Below are positions 33,333 through 43,790 of a DNA stretch of 64,000 nt, piece after piece; positions within the stretch are counted from its first letter, which is position 1; every line of letters starts with the position of its first letter. This stretch comes from Bacteroidota bacterium (lineage in GTDB: Bacteria > Bacteroidota > Ignavibacteria > UBA10030 > UBA6906). The stretch is from the NCBI GenBank assembly GCA_030835135.1, contig JAUQWO010000003.1:62001-126000 (forward strand). Direction: 5' to 3'. The notes beneath the pieces are model-generated. The model worked only from the letters and a program-made list of their open reading frames with translations, was not told the DNA's origin and ran no database searches. A program made the translations under genes and the position numbers.

Positions 33333-34679
33333 TCAGGCCTCCCGCTTGAGGTTGTACTTCTCGATCTTATGATAGAGCGTAACGCGGTCGATGTCCAGGA
33401 TGGTTGCACTCCGACTCACGTTCCAGCCGGTTTCGCGCAGGATCTGGTCGATATGCCGTTTTTCCACGTCCTCCATGCGCTTCCCTTCGCTCGGGGAGGG
33501 CAGATCGGTATGCAGGATCAGATGGTCGCGGTTGATCATGTTCCCCGGCGAAATCACCATCGCGCGTTCGATCACATTCTCCAGCTCCCGCACATTGCCG
33601 GGCCAATCATACGCCTTCAACGCGAGCATGGCATCCGGTGAGAACCCGTGCATCTTCCGGTTCATCGCGCGGGCATACTTCACGAGGAAGAAGTGCGCAA
33701 GCTTGGCAACGTCGCCCCGGCGCGCCCGCAACGGCGGCAGCGCGATCTCGAAGACGGTCAGCCGGTAGAAGAGATCCTGCCGGAACTTCCCGTCCTTGAC
33801 GGCCTGCTCGAGGTCCATGCCCGACGCACAGATGAGCCGGTATCCCGTGCGCACCGGGTCCGCACCGCCGAGCCGCGTGATCTGTTCCGCTTCCAGCGCC
33901 GAGAGCAATTCGCCCTGCAACTTGAGATCAAGATTTCCGATCTCATCGAGGAACAGCGTGCCACCTTCCGCCATCTCCATCTTCCCCTTCCGCATCTGCA
34001 AGGCGCCGGGGAACGCATCCTTCTCATGGCCGAAGAGTTCATCGGCGAGCATCGCGTCGGCCACCGCACCGCAATTCACGGTGACGAACGGCATGTACCG
34101 GCGACTCCCGGCCTGATGGATCGCCCGTGCGACGAGTTCTTTCCCGGTCCCGACCTCGCCCTTGACGAGGACGATCGTGCTGGTCTGGCCCACGGTCTGC
34201 ACCAGCTCCATCACCCTGTGCATCTCCGGAGACTCGCCGATCAGTTCGACGCCGGAGGTGAGTTCGCTCACGGTATCGCGGAGGCGCTGGTTCTCCAGGT
34301 TCAGCAGCTGTTGCTCGAGGGCATTCACCACGATATGGTTCAGATAATCGGGATCGATGGGTTTGGTGATGTAATCATACGCTCCTTCTTTCAGCGCCCG
34401 GACGGCGGTCTCGACCGTCGCAAACGCGGTCACGACGATCACCACGACTTGCCGGTCGATCTTCTTGATGCGCTGGAGAAGCTCCAGACCGTCCATACCC
34501 GGCATACGGATGTCCACGAGGACCAGATTCCAGTGCTCACTCTGCAGGATCTTCAATGCGCTGGCACCGTCCGGCGCTGCGCCCACGCGGAAGCCATCCT
34601 CACGGAACCACTTCGTGAGGGATTCCCTGACGATCAATTCATCATCGACGACGAGAATGCCGAGATCACTCTTTTTCAT
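33333..34679 (-). CDS. NtrC-type response regulator with altered sigma-54 contact loop
   Basis: 448 residues: receiver (1-120, phospho-acceptor D56 in LVDIRMPGMDG), AAA+ domain (~145-375) and a Fis-type helix-turn-helix (WNVSRSATILDIDRVTLYHK). Walker A GEVGTGKE and Walker B GTLFLDEIGNLD are intact, and the arginine-finger region VFEIALPPLRARRGDV is present. The GAFTGA loop that contacts sigma-54, however, reads DAFPGA at residues 221-226 after FGHEK. The gene follows the heme-domain kinase by 12 nt and is presumably its partner. Likely target is the divergent ferredoxin/NrfD/cytochrome operon. Whether it activates sigma-54 polymerase is doubtful. Confidence 0.88.
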   Translation of the reverse strand: MKKSDLGILVVDDELIVRESLTKWFREDGFRVGAAPDGASALKILQSEHWNLVLVDIRMPGMDGLELLQRIKKIDRQVVVIVVTAFATVETAVRALKEGAYDYITKPIDPDYLNHIVVNALEQQLLNLENQRLRDTVSELTSGVELIGESPEMHRVMELVQTVGQTSTIVLVKGEVGTGKELVARAIHQAGSRRYMPFVTVNCGAVADAMLADELFGHEKDAFPGALQMRKGKMEMAEGGTLFLDEIGNLDLKLQGELLSALEAEQITRLGGADPVRTGYRLICASGMDLEQAVKDGKFRQDLFYRLTVFEIALPPLRARRGDVAKLAHFFLVKYARAMNRKMHGFSPDAMLALKAYDWPGNVRELENVIERAMVISPGNMINRDHLILHTDLPSPSEGKRMEDVEKRHIDQILRETGWNVSRSATILDIDRVTLYHKIEKYNLKREA

Positions 34680-34691
34680 GAGGCAAGCCCT

Positions 34692-36386
34692 TTAGGAAAC
34701 CGCAGAGAGGTCAGTAGGGATAGTGGCGGACTGCCGCCGCGGGAGCAGCACGGTGAACGTGCTGCCGGTCCCGGGTGCGGTATCCACCTCGATGGTCCCG
34801 TGATGGCGTCCGATGATGCCGTACGCGATCGCGAGGCCGAGGCCGACACCACGTCCGTCGGCTTTCGTGGTAAAGAACGGTTCAAAGATCCTGGCACGGA
34901 CGTCGTCGGTCATGCCGATGCCGGTATCCGCCACCCGGATGCGCATCATATCGCCATCAGGGTCGGGCCGGGCCTCAACGCTGATGAGTGCGCTGGCCGG
35001 CCGGGGCGAAGCGAGCGCGATCGCTTCGATGCCGTTGATCATCAGCACCATGAGCACCTGCTGGATCTGTCCGGGATCGCACACCAGCGCATCATCCTTC
35101 GAGGTGGCGACAGCGATCTCGACGTTGTGCATCTCGGCATAGTGTTGCACAAGCATCCGGCACCGCTCGAGGATCGTGCCAAGGGCAACGGGCTCCAGCG
35201 TTGCGCGCTGGGGCCGGGCGAACACGAGCATGTTCTTGACGATCGAACCGCAGCGCTGGGCCTCGTCGGCGACGAGCTGCAGGTCACCGATCAGTCCCTC
35301 CACCTGCTCCCGCGGCAGATCGAGCCGCTGCAGCCGCTTGATGGAGAGCTTCGCGAATGTCAGAATGCCTTCCAGCGGATTGTTGATCTCATGCGCCACG
35401 CTGGCGGCGAGGTTCCCGAGCGACGCCATCTTCTCGACGCTGAGCATGCTGCGATGGATCCGCTCGAGGTCCGCGGTCTTTTCACGGATCTTTGCCTCCA
35501 GCGTCCCGGACCATTCCGTGATCTCCTGACGGGCACGGGCAAGCTCCTCCGTCATGGCGTTGAACGCACCCGCGAGCTGGCCGAGTTCGTCAGCGCTATG
35601 GATCGGCAGCCGCTTGTCGAGATTCCCGGCGGTCACGGTCTCCATGCCGTCGATGAGGGTGCGTACCGGCCGGCGGACGAACCACCACAGGAACCCGCCC
35701 GAGACGAACGCGATGGCGAGCACGGCGGCAACAGAGAGCGCGATGAACTGATTGCGGCTTTCGGCCAGACTCGCATCCATGTCACTCATCGACATGCGGA
35801 CGTCCAGGATGCCGAGCACGCGCGTCCCCTCTGCATGGGCATGGCACGCCGCGGTCCAGCACGATGCGTCATTCATGATCGGGGTGACCAGCGTCAGGAT
35901 GCGCTCGCCGTCTGCCCGCGTCACGATATCGTAGTCGTCCCGGTGATCATACGGGCCAGGACGGACGGTCGTGCCCTCGTGACAGGTCCGGCACACCTTG
36001 TCGCCCATGGGCACGGTCGAATGCAACTCGGTGGTATCGGCCGCGAAGACCACGCGCCCTTCCTTGTTCATGATCCGCAGGCCATGGATGCCGGGCTCAT
36101 CTCCGATCGCACGGAGGATCTCCTGCATCTCGCCCTTGTCGTTCTTCAGCATGCTGTGCGTGGTCGAGCGGACCATCAGATCGCTGATGCGCACGGCGCT
36201 CACCAGCACATTCTCACGTAAATGCGAGCTATGGATCGATATGGTGGCAAGAGCGAGGGCCACCATGACGATCATCTGGATCCCTCCTATGAGAAGGAAG
36301 AGTCGGAAGGCCAGGGTTCGGGAGATATGACGTGCACCGAGGATCATGGGCCGGATTGGGGTTATCAGCAGAATTTCACAAATCAT
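34692..36386 (-). CDS. Sensor histidine kinase with c-type-heme-like extracytoplasmic domain
   Basis: 564 residues (an internal ATG at 36347 is an alternative start). A membrane helix near residues 26-49, an extracytoplasmic domain of about 165 residues, a second helix (~218-240), HAMP, HisKA with H332 in [11 protein letters not shown], and HATPase ([21 protein letters not shown]). The sensor domain contains CRTCH (132-136), a CxxCH heme-binding motif, and CWTAACHAH (176-184), a CX4CH motif, suggesting one or two covalently bound hemes. The same layout is found in the kinase at 39924. It probably senses redox state or a small ligand at the periplasmic face and signals to the adjacent NtrC-like regulator. 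Confidence 0.88.
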
Positions 36387-36593: not shown

Positions 36594-37490
36594 ATGAAAG
36601 CACAAGACCGCCGATCGTTCCTCAAAACAGCCGCCGCTGTCGGCACAGCGGCCGTGGGTATGGGAACTGCAACGGCTGCCGCCGGGCCGAAGAACATCCT
36701 CTCACCAGACCGTATGGGCGTGCTGGTCGATACGACCGTCTGCGTTGGCTGCAGGAATTGCGAGCATGCCTGCAAGACCGCGCACGACCTTCCGACCGAA
36801 CCGCTGAGTTCCTATGGAGACCGGTCGGTCTTCGAACAGATGCGCCGCCCGGATGACACCGCGCTCTGCGTGGTGAACGAGTACGAGAACCCGAAGAACG
36901 CCGACCTCCCCTACGACGTGAAGGTGCAGTGCATGCACTGCGACCATCCCGCATGCCTGTCGGCGTGCATCGTCGGCGCATTCTCCAAGGAGGAGAACGG
37001 TGCGGTGGTCTGGGACACGGACAAATGCATCGGCTGCCGCTACTGCATGGCCGCATGCCCGTTCCAGATCCCGGCATTCGAATATCACAAGGCGCTCGAT
37101 CCGCAGATCCGCAAATGCGACTTCTGCATCGAGCGGACCACGAAGGGCGAGTTGCCCGCCTGCGTGAACATCTGTCCGGTGGAAGCGCTGACGTACGGCC
37201 CGCGCGATGAGGTCATCCGTATCGCGAAGCAGCGCATCAGGACATACGGCGACCGCTACGTGGACCATATCTACGGCGAGCACGAGGTTGGTGGGACTTC
37301 ATGGATGTATATGGCCGGCCGCGATTTCAAGGACCTGGGATTTCCCAAGCTCGGACAGAACACGGCCCCGGGTGTGTCGGAGGCGATCCAGCACGGTATC
37401 TTCGCGTACTTCATGCCTCCGGTCGCGCTGTATGCCCTCCTCGGCGCGATCATGTGGATGACCAAAACCCGGAAAGAAGAAGGCCTCTAG
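36594..37490 (+). CDS. Tat-type periplasmic four-cluster ferredoxin subunit (HmcB/NrfC/HybA-like)
   Basis: 298 residues from ATG 36594, chosen for the AAGGA just upstream and the Tat signal that follows (DRRSFLKTAAAVGTAAVG). Four [4Fe-4S] motifs are visible: CVGCRNCEHAC, CMHCDHPACLSAC, CIGCRYCMAACP and CDFCIERTTKGELPACVNIC (split by a 12-residue loop). A C-terminal membrane helix (YFMPPVALYALLGAIMWM) would anchor the protein, as in HmcB. It should carry electrons between the NrfD-like subunit and the multiheme cytochrome on the periplasmic side. First gene of the respiratory/signalling operon. Confidence 0.93.
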   Translation: MKAQDRRSFLKTAAAVGTAAVGMGTATAAAGPKNILSPDRMGVLVDTTVCVGCRNCEHACKTAHDLPTEPLSSYGDRSVFEQMRRPDDTALCVVNEYENPKNADLPYDVKVQCMHCDHPACLSACIVGAFSKEENGAVVWDTDKCIGCRYCMAACPFQIPAFEYHKALDPQIRKCDFCIERTTKGELPACVNICPVEALTYGPRDEVIRIAKQRIRTYGDRYVDHIYGEHEVGGTSWMYMAGRDFKDLGFPKLGQNTAPGVSEAIQHGIFAYFMPPVALYALLGAIMWMTKTRKEEGL

Positions 37491-37502: not shown

Positions 37503-38744
37503 ATGCATGCTCACATGAAACCTGCGCCCATGAAGGGGAAGTTCTTCACGCCGGGCGTCATCATTCTCACGCTCATCGCCCTGAACGGATTGGTGTTCCT
37601 TGCCGGCCGGTTCTTCTTCGGGATCGGGTCGGTGACGAACCTGAACAACCAGTATCCCTGGGGATTATGGATCGCTGTCGACGTTGCCGCGGGCGTTGCC
37701 CTCGCCGCCGGCGGGTTCACCACGGCCGCCCTCGGCCATGTGATGCACCGCGAGGAGTATCACGTGATCCTCCGTCCCGCCCTGCTCACCGCCATGCTCG
37801 GCTATACGTTCGTCGCCACCGCCGTGTTCATCGACATTGGCCGCTGGTACTTCATCTGGCACCCCCTGATCATGTGGAACGGCTCGTCCGCCCTGTTCGA
37901 GGTCGGCATCTGCGTCATGATCTACATGTCCGTGCTCTACATCGAGTTCCTCCCGATGGTCACCGAACGCTTCATCGGTCACGTGACCCTGCCGGGTGTG
38001 CTGAGCCGACTCAACGCACCCCTGGACCGTCTGCTGCGCTTCCTGGACCGCACCCTCGAGCGTTCCATGTTCATCTTCATCATCGCCGGCGTCGTGCTCT
38101 CCACGCTCCACCAGTCGTCCCTCGGCACCCTGATGGTGATCGCCGGATCGAAGATGCATCCGCTCTGGCAGACCCCCGTGCTGCCGTTGCTGTTCCTGCT
38201 CTCCGCGATCTCGGTCGGCTTCCCGATGGTGATCTTTGAATCCATGATCGCCTCCCGCGCATTCAAACAGAAGATCGAGATCGATGTGCTGTCGCGCCTC
38301 GGCGGACTCGTGGCACCGATACTCGGGATCTACCTGGCGTTCAAGCTGGGCGATATGTTCATCCGCGAGACGTTCGTGTATCTGCAGGAATTCAGTGTCG
38401 AGAGCGTGATGTGGACCCTCGAGGTCGTGCTGGGCATCGTGATCCCGCTGCGGATGTTCCTCTCCCGCGCCGTGCTCAAGTCGCCCCTCCTCCTGTTCAT
38501 CGCTTCGTCGCTCGTGATCCTCGGGGTGGCGCTCAACCGCATCAACAACTTTGTCGTGGCCTATACGCCCCCCTACGCCTTCGGCTCGTACTTCCCGTCC
38601 ATCGGTGAGATCTCGGTCACGGTGGGCTTCATCGCCCTCCTCGTCCTGATCTACCGCGTGTATGTCATGATCTTCCCGGTGATCAGCGTGCCGGAGGGAC
38701 CCGCAACACCCCAGACCAAGTATGCGATCAGAGGTAAGCAATGA
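37503..38744 (+). CDS. NrfD/HmcC-like integral membrane subunit
   Basis: 413 residues from ATG 37503, with AGGAG eight bases upstream. About nine or ten membrane helices, of the NrfD/PsrC family (NNQYPWGLWIAVDVAAGVAL, GRWYFIWHPLIMWNGSS, STLHQSSLGTLMVIAGSK). Family members bind quinone without cofactors and exchange electrons with an adjacent ferredoxin subunit. The LHQSSLG region is typical of the Hmc/Dms-type menaquinol members. The stop overlaps the cytochrome start (ATGA), so the three subunits are made together. Confidence 0.92.
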   Translation: MHAHMKPAPMKGKFFTPGVIILTLIALNGLVFLAGRFFFGIGSVTNLNNQYPWGLWIAVDVAAGVALAAGGFTTAALGHVMHREEYHVILRPALLTAMLGYTFVATAVFIDIGRWYFIWHPLIMWNGSSALFEVGICVMIYMSVLYIEFLPMVTERFIGHVTLPGVLSRLNAPLDRLLRFLDRTLERSMFIFIIAGVVLSTLHQSSLGTLMVIAGSKMHPLWQTPVLPLLFLLSAISVGFPMVIFESMIASRAFKQKIEIDVLSRLGGLVAPILGIYLAFKLGDMFIRETFVYLQEFSVESVMWTLEVVLGIVIPLRMFLSRAVLKSPLLLFIASSLVILGVALNRINNFVVAYTPPYAFGSYFPSIGEISVTVGFIALLVLIYRVYVMIFPVISVPEGPATPQTKYAIRGKQ

Positions 38745-39922
38745 GAACTCGTGTCCTGTCGTTGGTGACCATCGTCGCGTTGCTATGGGCCTCGCCCGTG
38801 TTCGGGCAGGGGTCCAAATGGGACAAGCATGCTCCCCCGAAAAAGGCCGACATCTCCTGTCAGACGTGCCATGCGGGTTCCGCGCCGACCAGGACCAATC
38901 CGGCACTCCTCCCCTGCCCCCGGTCACGGATCCTTCCGGGCTTCCACCCGGATCAGTCGGGACCCGAAGTGCTCATCATGAGCAAGGTGTCCAAAGAGTA
39001 CGGACCGGTCGTGTTCTCGCATAAGCTGCACGCGGACATGTCCACGATGTCCGGCGGATGCTACGGGTGCCACCATTATAACAGCACATCGATGGCGATC
39101 CTGTCGTGCCGCGAGTGCCACCCGGCCAACCGGGCACGGACGGACATCAGCATGCCGGACCTGAAGGGGGCGTATCACCGTCAGTGCATGGACTGTCACC
39201 GTCAATGGAGCAAGGCAACGGACTGCCAGAGCTGTCACTTGAAACGGGACGCCCGACAGAGCACGGAAGAAGCGCTCCAGGCCGCCCGGCTCAAAGGGAA
39301 GTCCCATCCTGAACTCGCGGTCCCGAAGCGTGTCGTCTATGAGACCCGCAGCCAGCGCGGCTCCTTCGTGACCTTCTTCCATAACGATCACGCCGAACGG
39401 TTCAGCCTCGAATGCTCGGACTGCCACAAGAGCGAAAGCTGCGTCCGCTGCCATGAGCGCACGCCGGGCGGCAAGGCGTCGCCGGACCCGCTCTCACGCA
39501 CGGTGAAGACCCAGCGCACGATGGAGGCACTGCACGCACCCTGCTTCTCCTGTCACGGTCAGGACAAGTGCGAAGAATGTCACGTCGATCAGCCACGGGA
39601 AGCGTTCGATCACGCGAAGAGCGCCGGATGGGCCCTCAACAGGTTCCACCGTGCCCTCTCGTGCCAGAAGTGCCACGGACAGTCCAAGCGCTTCACGAAG
39701 GTCGATACCAAATGCGTCACGTGCCACAAGGGATGGACACCGGGAACGTTCAGGCACGAGATCACGTCGCTGAAACTCGACCCGGCGCACCGCGAACTCG
39801 ATTGCGAATCGTGCCACATCGATGGCAACTTCGCGAACCCGCCGTCATGCGCGGGCTGCCACGACGACAAAGCATACCCGGCCCAGAAACCCGGCACCAC
39901 GGTGAAAGCCGCGGCGAAATGA
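38741..39922 (+). CDS. Periplasmic 13-heme cytochrome c
   Basis: 393 residues with a signal peptide (LSLVTIVALLWASPVFGQ). Thirteen CxxCH motifs are present: CQTCH, CYGCH, CRECH, CMDCH, CQSCH, CSDCH, CVRCH, CFSCH, CEECH, CQKCH, CVTCH, CESCH and CAGCH, with extra His residues for bis-His ligation (for example FSHKLH, FFHNDH). The spacing resembles class III (cytochrome c3/HmcA-like) multiheme proteins. As the third subunit it would accept electrons from, or donate them to, the ferredoxin/NrfD pair and pass them to periplasmic or outer-membrane partners. Followed after one base by the second heme-domain kinase. Confidence 0.95.
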   Translation: MRTRVLSLVTIVALLWASPVFGQGSKWDKHAPPKKADISCQTCHAGSAPTRTNPALLPCPRSRILPGFHPDQSGPEVLIMSKVSKEYGPVVFSHKLHADMSTMSGGCYGCHHYNSTSMAILSCRECHPANRARTDISMPDLKGAYHRQCMDCHRQWSKATDCQSCHLKRDARQSTEEALQAARLKGKSHPELAVPKRVVYETRSQRGSFVTFFHNDHAERFSLECSDCHKSESCVRCHERTPGGKASPDPLSRTVKTQRTMEALHAPCFSCHGQDKCEECHVDQPREAFDHAKSAGWALNRFHRALSCQKCHGQSKRFTKVDTKCVTCHKGWTPGTFRHEITSLKLDPAHRELDCESCHIDGNFANPPSCAGCHDDKAYPAQKPGTTVKAAAK

Positions 39923-39923
39923 C

Positions 39924-41798
39924 ATGGCATTCCTTCAGGACATAGGCCTGAAACTGATCCTGGTGGCGGGACTCACCGCCATCCTGATCATCGGCGTGTT
40001 CGCGTACTTCAACATCCAGTCGCTGGACGCGAGTCTGCAGGCGGAAGTGGAACGGCACGCGAACCAGCTGAGCGAGACGGTCAAGTACAGCACGCGGCAG
40101 GACATGCTCGTGAATCAGCGGGACCGGATCCACCAGGTGATCAACGAGGTCGGGCGACAGCCCTCGATCAGCAGGGTCCGGGTCCTGAATAAGACCGGTG
40201 AGATCATCTACTCGTCGCTGGAGGAGGAGATCGGCACGACGGTGGACAAGAAGGCAGAGAGCTGCTACGCCTGCCATCAGGCGGACCAGCCGATCGAGCG
40301 CCTCCCCATCGCCGACCGGACGCGGGTCTTCCAGGTGCACCCGGATTCGTCACGCATGCTCGGGATCATCAATCCGATCTTCAACGAGAAGGCCTGCTGG
40401 TCCGCGGCGTGCCATGTGCATCCCGAGCAGCAGACCGTTCTTGGTGTCCTGGATGTCACACTGCCGCTTGCCGAAGTGGACCGCACGATCCAGAAGAGCC
40501 GCATGGAAATGCTGATCTTCGCGGTCATCGCGTTCCTGGCGATCAGCGTGATCATCGGCTACTTCGTGGAACGGTGGGTCGATACCCCCGTCAAGTCGCT
40601 CCTGAAGGCAACGCAACAGGTGGCCGATGGCAACCTCGGCTACCGGATCGATATCCGGAGGAACGACGAGATCGGCAAGCTGGCCCGCTCCTTCAACAAC
40701 ATGACGGACAAGCTCTCCGAAGCGCGGATGCAGTTGTTCCAGTCGGATAAGCTGGCCTCCCTCGGCAGGCTCGCGGCAGGTGTCGCCCATGAGATCAACA
40801 ATCCGCTGACCGGGGTGCTGACCTACAGCAGCTTCCTGATGAAGCGCACGCAGAACCAGCCCGAGATCCAGGAAGACCTGAAGGTGATCGTCCGCGAAAC
40901 ACTCCGCTCGCGGGATATCGTCAAGAGTCTCCTGGACTTTGCGCGCCAGTCGATCCCGAAGAAGAACGAGGCGGACCTGCACGAGATCATCGACCGCGCG
41001 ATCTCGGTGGTCCACAACCAGATCACGCTCGGACATGTGACCCTGGTGAAGAACCTGGACCCGGTCCTGCCGCGACTGACACTGGATGCCAATCAGATCC
41101 AGCAGGTGTTCATCAACCTTATCGTCAATGGCATCGACGCCATGAGCGGCACCGGCGGCACGATCACCATCGGCACGTCGGTCCAGAAACTGTCGCCGGT
41201 GGGCATGGCGCAGATCAAGAAAGCCACCTGTCCGAAGCGCCACAGTCTCATCGATGGTGCCGTGAAGATCGAAGGCCTCCCTTCCGCCCGGGTGAAGATC
41301 CGTGCGACCGGCGAGGAGGGGTTCCTGTACATCGACCCGTTATACGGACGGCACCGCGATCAGACCAGCTGGCCGATCGCGGCCGGACAGCTCCGCCAGG
41401 TGCAGTGCCCGGAGTGCGCCACCAGTCTGATCGAGCAGGATGTGACCTGTCCGCTGTGCGGCGCGCCGGCCTACTGGATGGAGATCCCGACGCTCGGCAA
41501 GTGGGAAGCGTGCACGCGGCAGGGGTGCGATTGGCAGCGCTGGGACTCCATGGACACGGGGGGGTTACGCGACTATGCGGAGATCACCGTCAGCGATACG
41601 GGATCCGGCATCCCGGCCGATGCCCTCCCGCGGATCTTCGAACCGTTCTTCTCGACCAAAGGACAGAAGGGCACCGGGCTTGGCCTGTCGGTCATCTGGG
41701 GGATCATCGACAATCACAACGGCACCATCAAGGTCGAGAGTGAGCTGAACAAAGGCACCACGTTCCGCATCCGTCTCCCCTTCGAGCAGCCACGGTGA
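39924..41798 (+). CDS. Sensor histidine kinase with heme-type sensor domain and zinc-ribbon insertion
   Basis: 624 residues. Helix 1 (LILVAGLTAILIIGVFAY), an extracytoplasmic domain with CYACH (114-118) and CWSAACHVH (158-166), helix 2 (~193-213), HAMP, HisKA with H289 in [11 protein letters not shown], then a split HATPase. The N-box Asn is N402 (INLIVNGIDAM), but the G1 box DTGSGIP begins at D558, a gap about 120 residues longer than usual. The insertion contains CPKRHSLIDG (C436), CPEC (495, 498), CPLCG (509, 512) and C530/C535, a zinc-ribbon-like set. The G2 region GTGLGLSVIWG is intact. It is co-transcribed with the cytochrome gene (1-nt gap) and with two response regulators. Confidence 0.9.
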   Translation: MAFLQDIGLKLILVAGLTAILIIGVFAYFNIQSLDASLQAEVERHANQLSETVKYSTRQDMLVNQRDRIHQVINEVGRQPSISRVRVLNKTGEIIYSSLEEEIGTTVDKKAESCYACHQADQPIERLPIADRTRVFQVHPDSSRMLGIINPIFNEKACWSAACHVHPEQQTVLGVLDVTLPLAEVDRTIQKSRMEMLIFAVIAFLAISVIIGYFVERWVDTPVKSLLKATQQVADGNLGYRIDIRRNDEIGKLARSFNNMTDKLSEARMQLFQSDKLASLGRLAAGVAHEINNPLTGVLTYSSFLMKRTQNQPEIQEDLKVIVRETLRSRDIVKSLLDFARQSIPKKNEADLHEIIDRAISVVHNQITLGHVTLVKNLDPVLPRLTLDANQIQQVFINLIVNGIDAMSGTGGTITIGTSVQKLSPVGMAQIKKATCPKRHSLIDGAVKIEGLPSARVKIRATGEEGFLYIDPLYGRHRDQTSWPIAAGQLRQVQCPECATSLIEQDVTCPLCGAPAYWMEIPTLGKWEACTRQGCDWQRWDSMDTGGLRDYAEITVSDTGSGIPADALPRIFEPFFSTKGQKGTGLGLSVIWGIIDNHNGTIKVESELNKGTTFRIRLPFEQPR

Positions 41799-41802
41799 GA
41801 GC

Positions 41803-42606
41803 ATGGGATACACGGCCGACATACTGGTGGTGGATGACGAGAGCGTGATCCTGGATGCGGTGACCAAGATCTGTACACTCGAGGGATACCGCGTGACGCA
41901 GGCCGCCGAGGCGTCCACCGCGGCGCACGTGCTGAGCGGCGGAACGTATGGTCTCATGCTCTGCGACATCATGATGCCGCAGATGGATGGCTTCCAGTTG
42001 CTGGAGATCGCGCGGAAGCGCGCACCGGGCATGCCGGTGATCATGGCCACGGGGTATTCCACCGTGGAGAACGCGGTGCGGTCGCTCCGTGAAGGCGCGA
42101 TCGATTTCGTGCCGAAACCGTTCACCAGCGATGAATTGCTCTCGGCGGTCGGCCGTGCGGTCCGCTACCGCCGGCTCGCGGAAGCGATCGCGGCGGCCGG
42201 GCAGGGGCCTGTGGACCCCTCCCTGCTGATCGTTCCCTGCCCTCCCAGGTACCAGCGGCTCGGGTATGCGAGCTGGGTGGTCCTCGAGGACGGCGGGACC
42301 GCGTTGATCGGATTGACGCACCTGTTCCTGCGCATCCTCGAACGCATCGACGGGCTTGAATTGCAGCCGGTGAATGCCGAGATCGCCCAGGGTACCGCAT
42401 GCGCGCAGGCGAGAACACCGGATGGATTGCTGCATTCCGTGCTCGCACCCGTGAGCGGCAGGATCGTCGAAGTGAACCCGGCAGCCACGCCGGATGCGAT
42501 CGAGAAGGACCCGTACTTTGCCGGTTGGTTGTACCGGTGCATTCCCTCGGATGTCGATTACGAAATGCCCCAGCTGACGCCGTTCAGCGCCGGCACCCTG
42601 TTCTGA
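41803..42606 (+). CDS. Response regulator with GcvH-like output domain lacking the lipoyl lysine
   Basis: 267 residues, 4 nt after the kinase stop. Receiver domain residues 1-125 with acidic pocket DD (11-12), phospho-acceptor D55 (LCDIMMP), Thr in MATGYST and Lys in VPKPF. From about residue 140 the sequence resembles glycine-cleavage H protein (YASWVVLEDGGTALIGLTHL, SVLAPVSGRIVEVNP, DPYFAGWLYRCIP). The lysine that carries lipoate in GcvH is absent; the matching region reads QARTPDGLLHS. There is no DNA-binding domain. The output is probably protein-protein interaction or ligand binding. Confidence 0.85.
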   Translation: MGYTADILVVDDESVILDAVTKICTLEGYRVTQAAEASTAAHVLSGGTYGLMLCDIMMPQMDGFQLLEIARKRAPGMPVIMATGYSTVENAVRSLREGAIDFVPKPFTSDELLSAVGRAVRYRRLAEAIAAAGQGPVDPSLLIVPCPPRYQRLGYASWVVLEDGGTALIGLTHLFLRILERIDGLELQPVNAEIAQGTACAQARTPDGLLHSVLAPVSGRIVEVNPAATPDAIEKDPYFAGWLYRCIPSDVDYEMPQLTPFSAGTLF

Positions 42607-42626
42607 TCATTCAAGGAGACACGTAT

Positions 42627-43790
42627 ATGTTCCCGTTCGTCATAGCAGTCATTCTGTTCGTCATCGCCGACGTCCTGATCCGGGTCTTTTCCCGCCGCTT
42701 GCAGGAGAAGAAACTCCGGAAGGAACGCGAATCCGCCCTGGCGGAAAGCCTGAACCTCGACTTCACCCGCGAGGCGGCGACCCTCCGGCGCGCCGAGGTC
42801 GAACACGCCAAGGCCCGCATCCTCTGCGTCGACGATGAGCAGGTGATCCTGGATAGCTTCCGGAAGATCCTGGTCCTGGATGGCTATTCCGTGGACACGG
42901 TGCAGACCGGTCAGGAAGCCCTCGGGCTGCTGCAGACCCATCACTACGATTTCGTGTTCACGGACCTGAAGATGCCCGCCATGAGCGGCGTGGATGTCAC
43001 GAAATCGGTGAAGCACCTCCGCCCCGACATCGACGTGGTGATCATCACCGGGTATGCCACGGTCGAGACCGCAGTGGAATGCATGAAGTACGGTGCGATG
43101 GATTATGTCCAGAAACCCTTCACCGAGGACGAGTTGCTGGCGTTCGTGAAGAAGGCGCTCATCAAGCGGCAGGACCGCATCCAGAAGCAGCTCAAACCCA
43201 AGGTGCATATCACCCACATGTCGGCGGTCGGCCATACGGGGGCCGACGAGTTCGCCATCCCCGGCGGCGTCTTCATCGGTGCGGGACATACCTGGGTAGC
43301 GATGTTCGAGGACGGGACGGTGCGTGTCGGGCTCGACGACTTCGCCCGCAAATTACTCGGGACCGTCGACGGCATCGACTTCCCGAACCTCGGCATGACG
43401 GTCGCGGCCGGTCAGCCGCTGTTCACCGTGACGCAGGGGACACGTCGCGTTTCGTTCCTCTCCCCCGTGAGCGGAAAGGTCCTGGAGAACAATGCCGGGC
43501 TCGGCAAACACCTGGACGCGCTGGAGACGACGCCGTATGGTGAGAACTGGATCTGCGTGATCGATGCGGACAGACTGGACGCGGAGATCAAGGACCTGAA
43601 GATCGGCAACGGAGCGGTCGCCTTCTATCAGGAAGAGCTCGACCGCTTCAAGGAGATGACCAAGTCCATGTCGCGCCGGACACCCGACGGCTCGACTGCG
43701 CCCGCGGGCGAGGAGATGTATACGGGTGAGATGCAGGACCTTGACGACCGGGATCATGAGGCACTCGTCGGCGCGTTCTTCCGTCGATGA
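42627..43790 (+). CDS. Membrane-anchored response regulator with GcvH-like domain
   Basis: 387 residues from ATG 42627, chosen for AAGGAG upstream. An N-terminal membrane helix (MFPFVIAVILFVIADVLI) and a charged coiled stretch (~22-60) precede a receiver (65-185; DD 69-70, D113 in FTDLKMP, Thr in ITGYAT, Lys in VQKPF). A GcvH-like domain follows (~205-335: AGHTWVAMFEDGTVRVGLDD, FLSPVSGKVLENN, TPYGENWICVID), again without the lipoyl lysine (TQGTRRVSF at that site). A charged tail ends the protein. A receiver tethered to the membrane beside a respiratory complex suggests direct protein control rather than transcription. Confidence 0.85.
   Translation: MFPFVIAVILFVIADVLIRVFSRRLQEKKLRKERESALAESLNLDFTREAATLRRAEVEHAKARILCVDDEQVILDSFRKILVLDGYSVDTVQTGQEALGLLQTHHYDFVFTDLKMPAMSGVDVTKSVKHLRPDIDVVIITGYATVETAVECMKYGAMDYVQKPFTEDELLAFVKKALIKRQDRIQKQLKPKVHITHMSAVGHTGADEFAIPGGVFIGAGHTWVAMFEDGTVRVGLDDFARKLLGTVDGIDFPNLGMTVAAGQPLFTVTQGTRRVSFLSPVSGKVLENNAGLGKHLDALETTPYGENWICVIDADRLDAEIKDLKIGNGAVAFYQEELDRFKEMTKSMSRRTPDGSTAPAGEEMYTGEMQDLDDRDHEALVGAFFRR

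Follow-up and report, generated by a model that had tools for sequence, protein, structure and literature searches.

RR1 and RR2, the two response regulators encoded at the end of a six-gene respiratory operon, may be phospho-switchable subunits that carry the fold of the glycine cleavage H-protein (GcvH) without its lipoyl lysine, and that directly gate membrane quinone:cytochrome complexes of the NrfD/HmcB type. We regard this proposition, in which docking and gating are the parts that we infer, as evenly balanced. It is supported by a near-constant operon, conserved receivers, an H fold, the absence of a lipoyl lysine, receiver-less homologues adjacent to such complexes, and the likeness of RR2 to those homologues in phylogeny, membrane helix and C-terminal tail. 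The finding is stronger than the preliminary description of this DNA stated, owing to the conserved operon of complex, kinase and regulators which was overlooked there; also missed was a wider set of H-like proteins, anchored in the membrane and without receivers, that are encoded next to other NrfD complexes. Coordinates (Table 1) refer to the window, the whole stretch of 64,000 nucleotides that was analysed.

Table 1. Genes of the operon and their divergent neighbours in the window
Feature	Coordinates	Strand	Domains and motifs
Sigma-54 enhancer-binding response regulator, beside the second kinase	33333-34679	-	Pfam Response_reg, Sigma54_activat, HTH_8
Divergent second heme-c histidine kinase	34692-36386	-	Pfam HAMP, HisKA, HATPase, weak Mcp40H-20_sensor
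HmcB-like periplasmic 4Fe-4S subunit	36594-37490	+	Pfam Fer4_11; twin-arginine-like signal RRSFLK
NrfD/HybB/HmcC-like membrane quinone subunit	37503-38744	+	Pfam NrfD, 1.3e-18
Multiheme cytochrome c	38741-39922	+	Pfam Cytochrom_CIII, Cytochrome_C7
Sensor histidine kinase (diheme)	39924-41798	+	Pfam; two periplasmic heme-c motifs (CYACH, CWSAACH), HAMP, HisKA
RR1	41803-42606	+	267 aa; soluble receiver (D55), non-lipoyl H-like domain (residues about 140-267)
RR2	42627-43790	+	387 aa; membrane helix, receiver, non-lipoyl H-like domain, C-terminal tail helix

Pfam matches to Response_reg and GCV_H lie above the gathering cut-offs in both RR1 (4.5e-28 and 1.8e-12) and RR2 (4.2e-31 and 6.5e-16). Among the receivers of 51 RR1 and 52 RR2 relatives, the acidic pair, the phospho-acceptor aspartate and the lysine are invariant; the threonine is present in all 52 RR2 relatives, and the corresponding residue in the RR1 relatives is Thr in 47 and Ser in 4. 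This invariance makes it likely that phosphorylation is under selection, and both receivers, described from the outset as complete with acceptors D55 and D113, are expected from these residues to be phosphorylatable. RR2 is composed of a helix (residues about 2-22), the receiver (65-179), the H-like domain (about 209-345) and a conserved tail helix (374-384). That the helix at its N-terminus is membrane-spanning, as first proposed, is borne out by hydropathy (family median of the maximal 19-residue value 2.86, all >1.8), and it bears a conserved acidic residue, D15; the pattern FxxxDxxxR occurs in 77 of 84 sequences, and the remaining ones also have an acidic residue. Hydropathy indicates no membrane helix in RR1. 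Tails resembling W..EFF, a loose pattern, were found in 77/94 RR2, 19/46 stand-alone H-like and 7/85 RR1 sequences. Pfam detects no DNA-binding domain in either protein, in keeping with the argument against DNA binding originally drawn from the RR2 helix. The ATG at 42627 appears to be the best start for RR2, since a possible ribosome-binding site precedes it and relatives align from there; a longer frame from 42399 overlaps RR1 and was rejected as an overlap artefact.

The H-like domains share with GcvH (PF01597) both fold and sequence family, including the HxW strand, the end of the PVSG hairpin and the PYxxGW strand; they differ in that the lipoyl lysine is absent or not conserved, a receiver and (in RR2) a membrane helix have been added, and the genes lie in a respiratory operon rather than among gcv genes. 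AlphaFold2 models were obtained for RR1 (51 sequences; pLDDT 92.3, pTM 0.89) and for RR2 (52 sequences; pLDDT 81.7, with a pTM of 0.50 that makes domain placement uncertain). Foldseek searches with both models returned glycine cleavage H-proteins at or near the top, alongside receiver structures: RR2 matched the E. coli H-protein 3a8i E at 3.7e-11 (TM-score on target 0.87) and RR1 matched 3a7a at 6.9e-10 (0.84), the best matches spanning 0.87-0.90 for RR2 and 0.84-0.85 for RR1. A profile of the RR2 family likewise matched solved H-proteins (3hgb, 5e-18), so that Pfam, profile and model comparisons concur on the GcvH-like fold recognized earlier.

The position of the lipoyl lysine is occupied by G208 in RR1 and T272 in RR2, confirming the loss previously reported; the canonical GcvH encoded in this genome (contig C45) retains the lysine, in IEAVKAVSD. 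No relative of RR1 (n=73) or RR2 (n=80) has a lysine in a proper lipoyl motif. That the family is nonetheless a hidden lipoyl carrier, with the lysine of a minority of RR2 relatives modified, is scarcely credible: a lysine does occupy the hairpin position in 11 of the 80 RR2 relatives, but it is never conserved, its surroundings are always basic and QGKK-like rather than the E-x-x-K-A of GcvH, and it is absent from the window's RR2, from the other 69 RR2 relatives and from all 73 RR1 relatives. It is also very improbable, if less so, that lipoyl-domain or lipoate-processing proteins are partners of the H-like domain, which would thereby link redox signalling to lipoyl enzymes. The domain does retain the fold and a number of H-protein residues, and lipoyl genes do occur in the window; against this, the lipoyl site is lost, and the window's E1, E2, lipoamide dehydrogenase and LipB match nothing in the 80 related loci listed. 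The presence of these four genes in the window therefore looks incidental, and the connection to lipoyl metabolism raised in the preliminary description finds no support.

Other features of the domain distinguish the two regulators. C146 and H211, the latter within the former lipoyl hairpin, are nearly invariant in the RR1 H-like domain. Mean hairpin charge is +2.5 in RR2 (residues 267-278), +1.5 in stand-alone relatives, -1 in GcvH and -0.7 in RR1, and the opposite charges of RR1 and RR2 might reflect a heterodimer or an acidic partner.

RR1 and RR2 follow, in order, genes for an HmcB-like FeS protein (for which the ATG preceding the RRSFLK signal was chosen as the start), an NrfD protein, a multiheme cytochrome c whose relatives mostly have 13 CxxCH motifs, and a diheme histidine kinase. 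Against curated NCBIfam models, the HmcB-like subunit scores 323 bits for HmcB (cut-off 420) and the NrfD-like subunit 356 bits for the Ni/Fe-hydrogenase cytochrome b subunit (cut-off 450), and the HmcC model gives 267.5 bits (cut-off 550), which places the operon outside the Hmc equivalogs; PF03916 (68.1 bits, cut-off 25.8), together with PF13247 for the 4Fe-4S subunit, identifies a quinone module of the NrfD type. The second heme-c kinase and the sigma-54 regulator (33333-36386, minus strand) are transcribed divergently from the operon.

A scan of GTDB species genomes gave 174 relatives, and the matches listed cover 80 loci. By the labels of what are mostly metagenome-assembled records, the loci listed belong mainly to Ignavibacteria, and also to Elusimicrobia, Gemmatimonadetes, KSB1, a Kiritimatiellaeota-labelled genome and gammaproteobacterial genomes. 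Of the 54 listed loci whose upstream flank reaches 7 kb or more, 53 encode HmcB, NrfD and the kinase next to RR1/RR2 and on their strand. The exception, from Elusimicrobia (L121, 5866-12549), reads kinase-RR1-RR2-RR2, with no HmcB or NrfD within the flanks covered, and in five loci (L098, L114, L116, L125 and L136) an additional RR2-like protein and a 5-heme cytochrome are encoded ahead of the set. Among 296 sampled Bacteroidota genomes, RR1 was found in 18, all of the window's class, with an adjacent RR2 also listed at a strict threshold in 12 of these. In loci of the Melioribacter/Stygiobacter type (L117, 11232-17820, and similar), large multiheme cytochromes follow RR2, and a heme-free, probably exported protein of 420 aa lies between them; this gene content suggests an extracellular electron-transfer conduit.

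Linkage in an operon is no proof of physical contact with the complex, and the pair could instead signal to another partner, such as a transcription factor, the neighbouring sigma-54 regulator or a soluble enzyme, and be merely co-expressed with the complex. We consider this distinctly unlikely. The divergent heme kinase and sigma-54 regulator do adjoin the operon in the window, and L121 has no complex nearby; yet the operon has no conserved sigma-54 site upstream (7 of 51 loci have one, against 5.35 expected from shuffles), and the anchor of RR2 resembles that of receiver-less proteins associated with such complexes. A candidate sigma-54 promoter in the window, a weak GG-N10-GC 96 bases upstream of HmcB, is not conserved and was rejected.

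The kinase gene lies directly upstream of RR1, the arrangement of a linked cognate kinase. Both heme-c motifs (CxxCH and CX4CH) and the histidine of HEINNP are present in all 69 aligned kinases, consistent with a heme-c sensor of redox state or of a ligand, the thing sensed being our inference. The ATPase domain contains a Cys-rich, zinc-ribbon-like insertion (residues about 430-540), unusual for a histidine kinase, in which C436, C495, C498, C509, C512 and C530 are kept in 67-68 of 69 sequences; this insertion is possibly a second, cytoplasmic input for a metal or redox signal.

H-like proteins also occur without receivers. The genome has six GCV_H matches, namely the true GcvH, RR1, RR2, a lipoyl E2 and two further degenerate proteins, of which one (contig C11) adjoins NrfD and the other (contig C49) adjoins a multiheme cytochrome and a molybdopterin oxidoreductase-like gene. 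The former, membrane-anchored and with a Cys motif, is encoded directly downstream of NrfD (L007, 11983-14481); the latter is Cys-rich and stands in a row with its two neighbours (L008, 8134-11816). Homologues of both loci occur together in one Qrc-like gene cluster (L059). In related genomes, 20 neighbourhoods, picked by H-domain matches and hence no measure of the frequency of NrfD complexes without such proteins, encode H-like proteins that are membrane-anchored or bear a Cys motif; these frequently come in twos or threes and adjoin HmcB/NrfD, joined by genes for a heme kinase and a sigma-54 regulator where the contig extends far enough. Three stand-alone H-like proteins score well above the GCV_H cut-off in Pfam, and among those with a readable hairpin none has a lysine at the lipoyl position except the C11 protein, where it is isolated and replaced by N in the closest relative. 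The operon also offers a likely context for this family, which profiles call glycine cleavage H-proteins and which lacks the lipoyl lysine. One stand-alone subtype has a conserved N-terminal C-W-M...C...C..C motif (L051, 7549-8400; L091, 12729-13481; L107, 13943-14827), possibly a metal or FeS site.

In a tree of 113 H-domains, with support values from a quick method on few columns, all H-like proteins stand apart from true GcvH (99), RR1 forms a clade of its own (99), and RR2 joins a clade whose members are membrane-anchored and have no receiver (97); L133, the row labelled 'gTM' inside RR2, is a frame-split RR2. The separate branch, together with the canonical GcvH encoded elsewhere in the genome, makes a part in glycine cleavage less likely. 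Members of this sister clade for which a helix is shown have an acidic residue at the matching place, and their C-terminal tails are similar to those of RR2. A single clade of RR1 and RR2 is not rejected, although the tree separates them (AU p 0.39). These sequences are most simply read as an existing protein that gained a receiver between its helix and its H-domain. The earlier idea of a non-lipoylated H fold serving as an output module stands as regards the fold and its junction to an intact receiver; given the HmcB/NrfD/heme-kinase operon and the receiver-less family, a module of respiratory complexes to which receivers were added is a better description of the H-like domain than a generic output.

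The same homologues lend themselves to another account, in which the H-like domains have a constitutive role in the structure or assembly of the complex, the receivers serve mainly for feedback on the kinase or as a phosphate sink, and electron flow is ungated. The receiver-less proteins beside HmcB/NrfD have no phospho-switch, and one kinase with two receivers fits the layout of a sink. We nevertheless think this account rather unlikely: conservation of the receiver residues equals or exceeds that of the H-like domain, and the two receivers persist across phyla.

The closest precedent for a redeployed GcvH is LbpA, the lipoate-binding protein of the sHdr sulfur-oxidation pathway, which resembles the present family in being a GcvH-like protein tied to an electron-transfer system outside glycine cleavage, and which carries lipoate (PMC6067878), whereas the H-like family described here has lost the lipoyl site and is mostly membrane-anchored. 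With Hmc, Qrc and other quinone complexes of the NrfD type (NCBIfam HmcB, HmcC; PMC8076601), in which NrfD is described as an ion-translocating subunit (PMC8076601), the operon has in common the set of FeS protein, NrfD and multiheme cytochrome; it differs in its scores below the curated HmcB/HmcC cut-offs and in the addition of H-like proteins, heme kinase and receivers. In Melioribacter roseus, of the same bacterial group, the FeS/NrfD pair of the NrfCD cluster Mros1571-1572 was put forward as a probable quinol:cytochrome module that supplies electrons for Fe(III) reduction, quinol electrons being proposed to pass to multiheme cytochromes; no response regulator or glycine cleavage protein is mentioned in that paper (PMC3534657). 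The cluster is probably of the same operon type as that of the window. Similar clusters have been described in MBNT15, where response regulators are likewise not mentioned (PMC9386147). CheY and DivK, which act by protein-protein contact, share with RR1 and RR2 an intact receiver and the lack of a DNA-binding output, and differ from them in that RR1 and RR2 have an H-fold output, an operon link to a respiratory complex and, in RR2, a membrane anchor. No description of receiver-GcvH fusions was found in the open-access literature searched, in keeping with the preliminary description, to which such a regulator type was not known, and GcvH-type outputs are not mentioned in the reviews consulted.

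Under the gating mechanism that we favor, the H-like domain would lie at the cytoplasmic face and dock on NrfD or a neighbouring subunit, with HmcB, given its twin-arginine-like signal, and the cytochrome presumably on the periplasmic side. The receiver and H-domain of RR2 are placed in the cytoplasm because basic residues follow the helix and because the receiver must meet the kinase there. The redox or ligand state of the periplasmic hemes would direct the kinase to phosphorylate RR1 and RR2; phosphorylation of the RR2 receiver, lying between helix and H-like domain, would alter docking; and altered docking would gate the complex directly, in its activity or its assembly, and not by way of transcription. 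RR1 may have a different role, being devoid of a membrane helix and, in most sequences, of the tail helix. Somewhat more tentatively, at a little short of an even chance, we propose that a diheme kinase which phosphorylates a membrane-bound and a soluble regulator, whose lysine-less H-domains are subunits of the NrfD complex, constitutes a post-translational switch present in several phyla.

Two-component systems are normally taken to control respiration via transcription, and the organisms concerned have been linked to iron reduction and to electron transfer outside the cell. If the mechanism is true, these regulators would provide a direct phospho-switch on quinone:cytochrome electron flow, tied to the complex itself.
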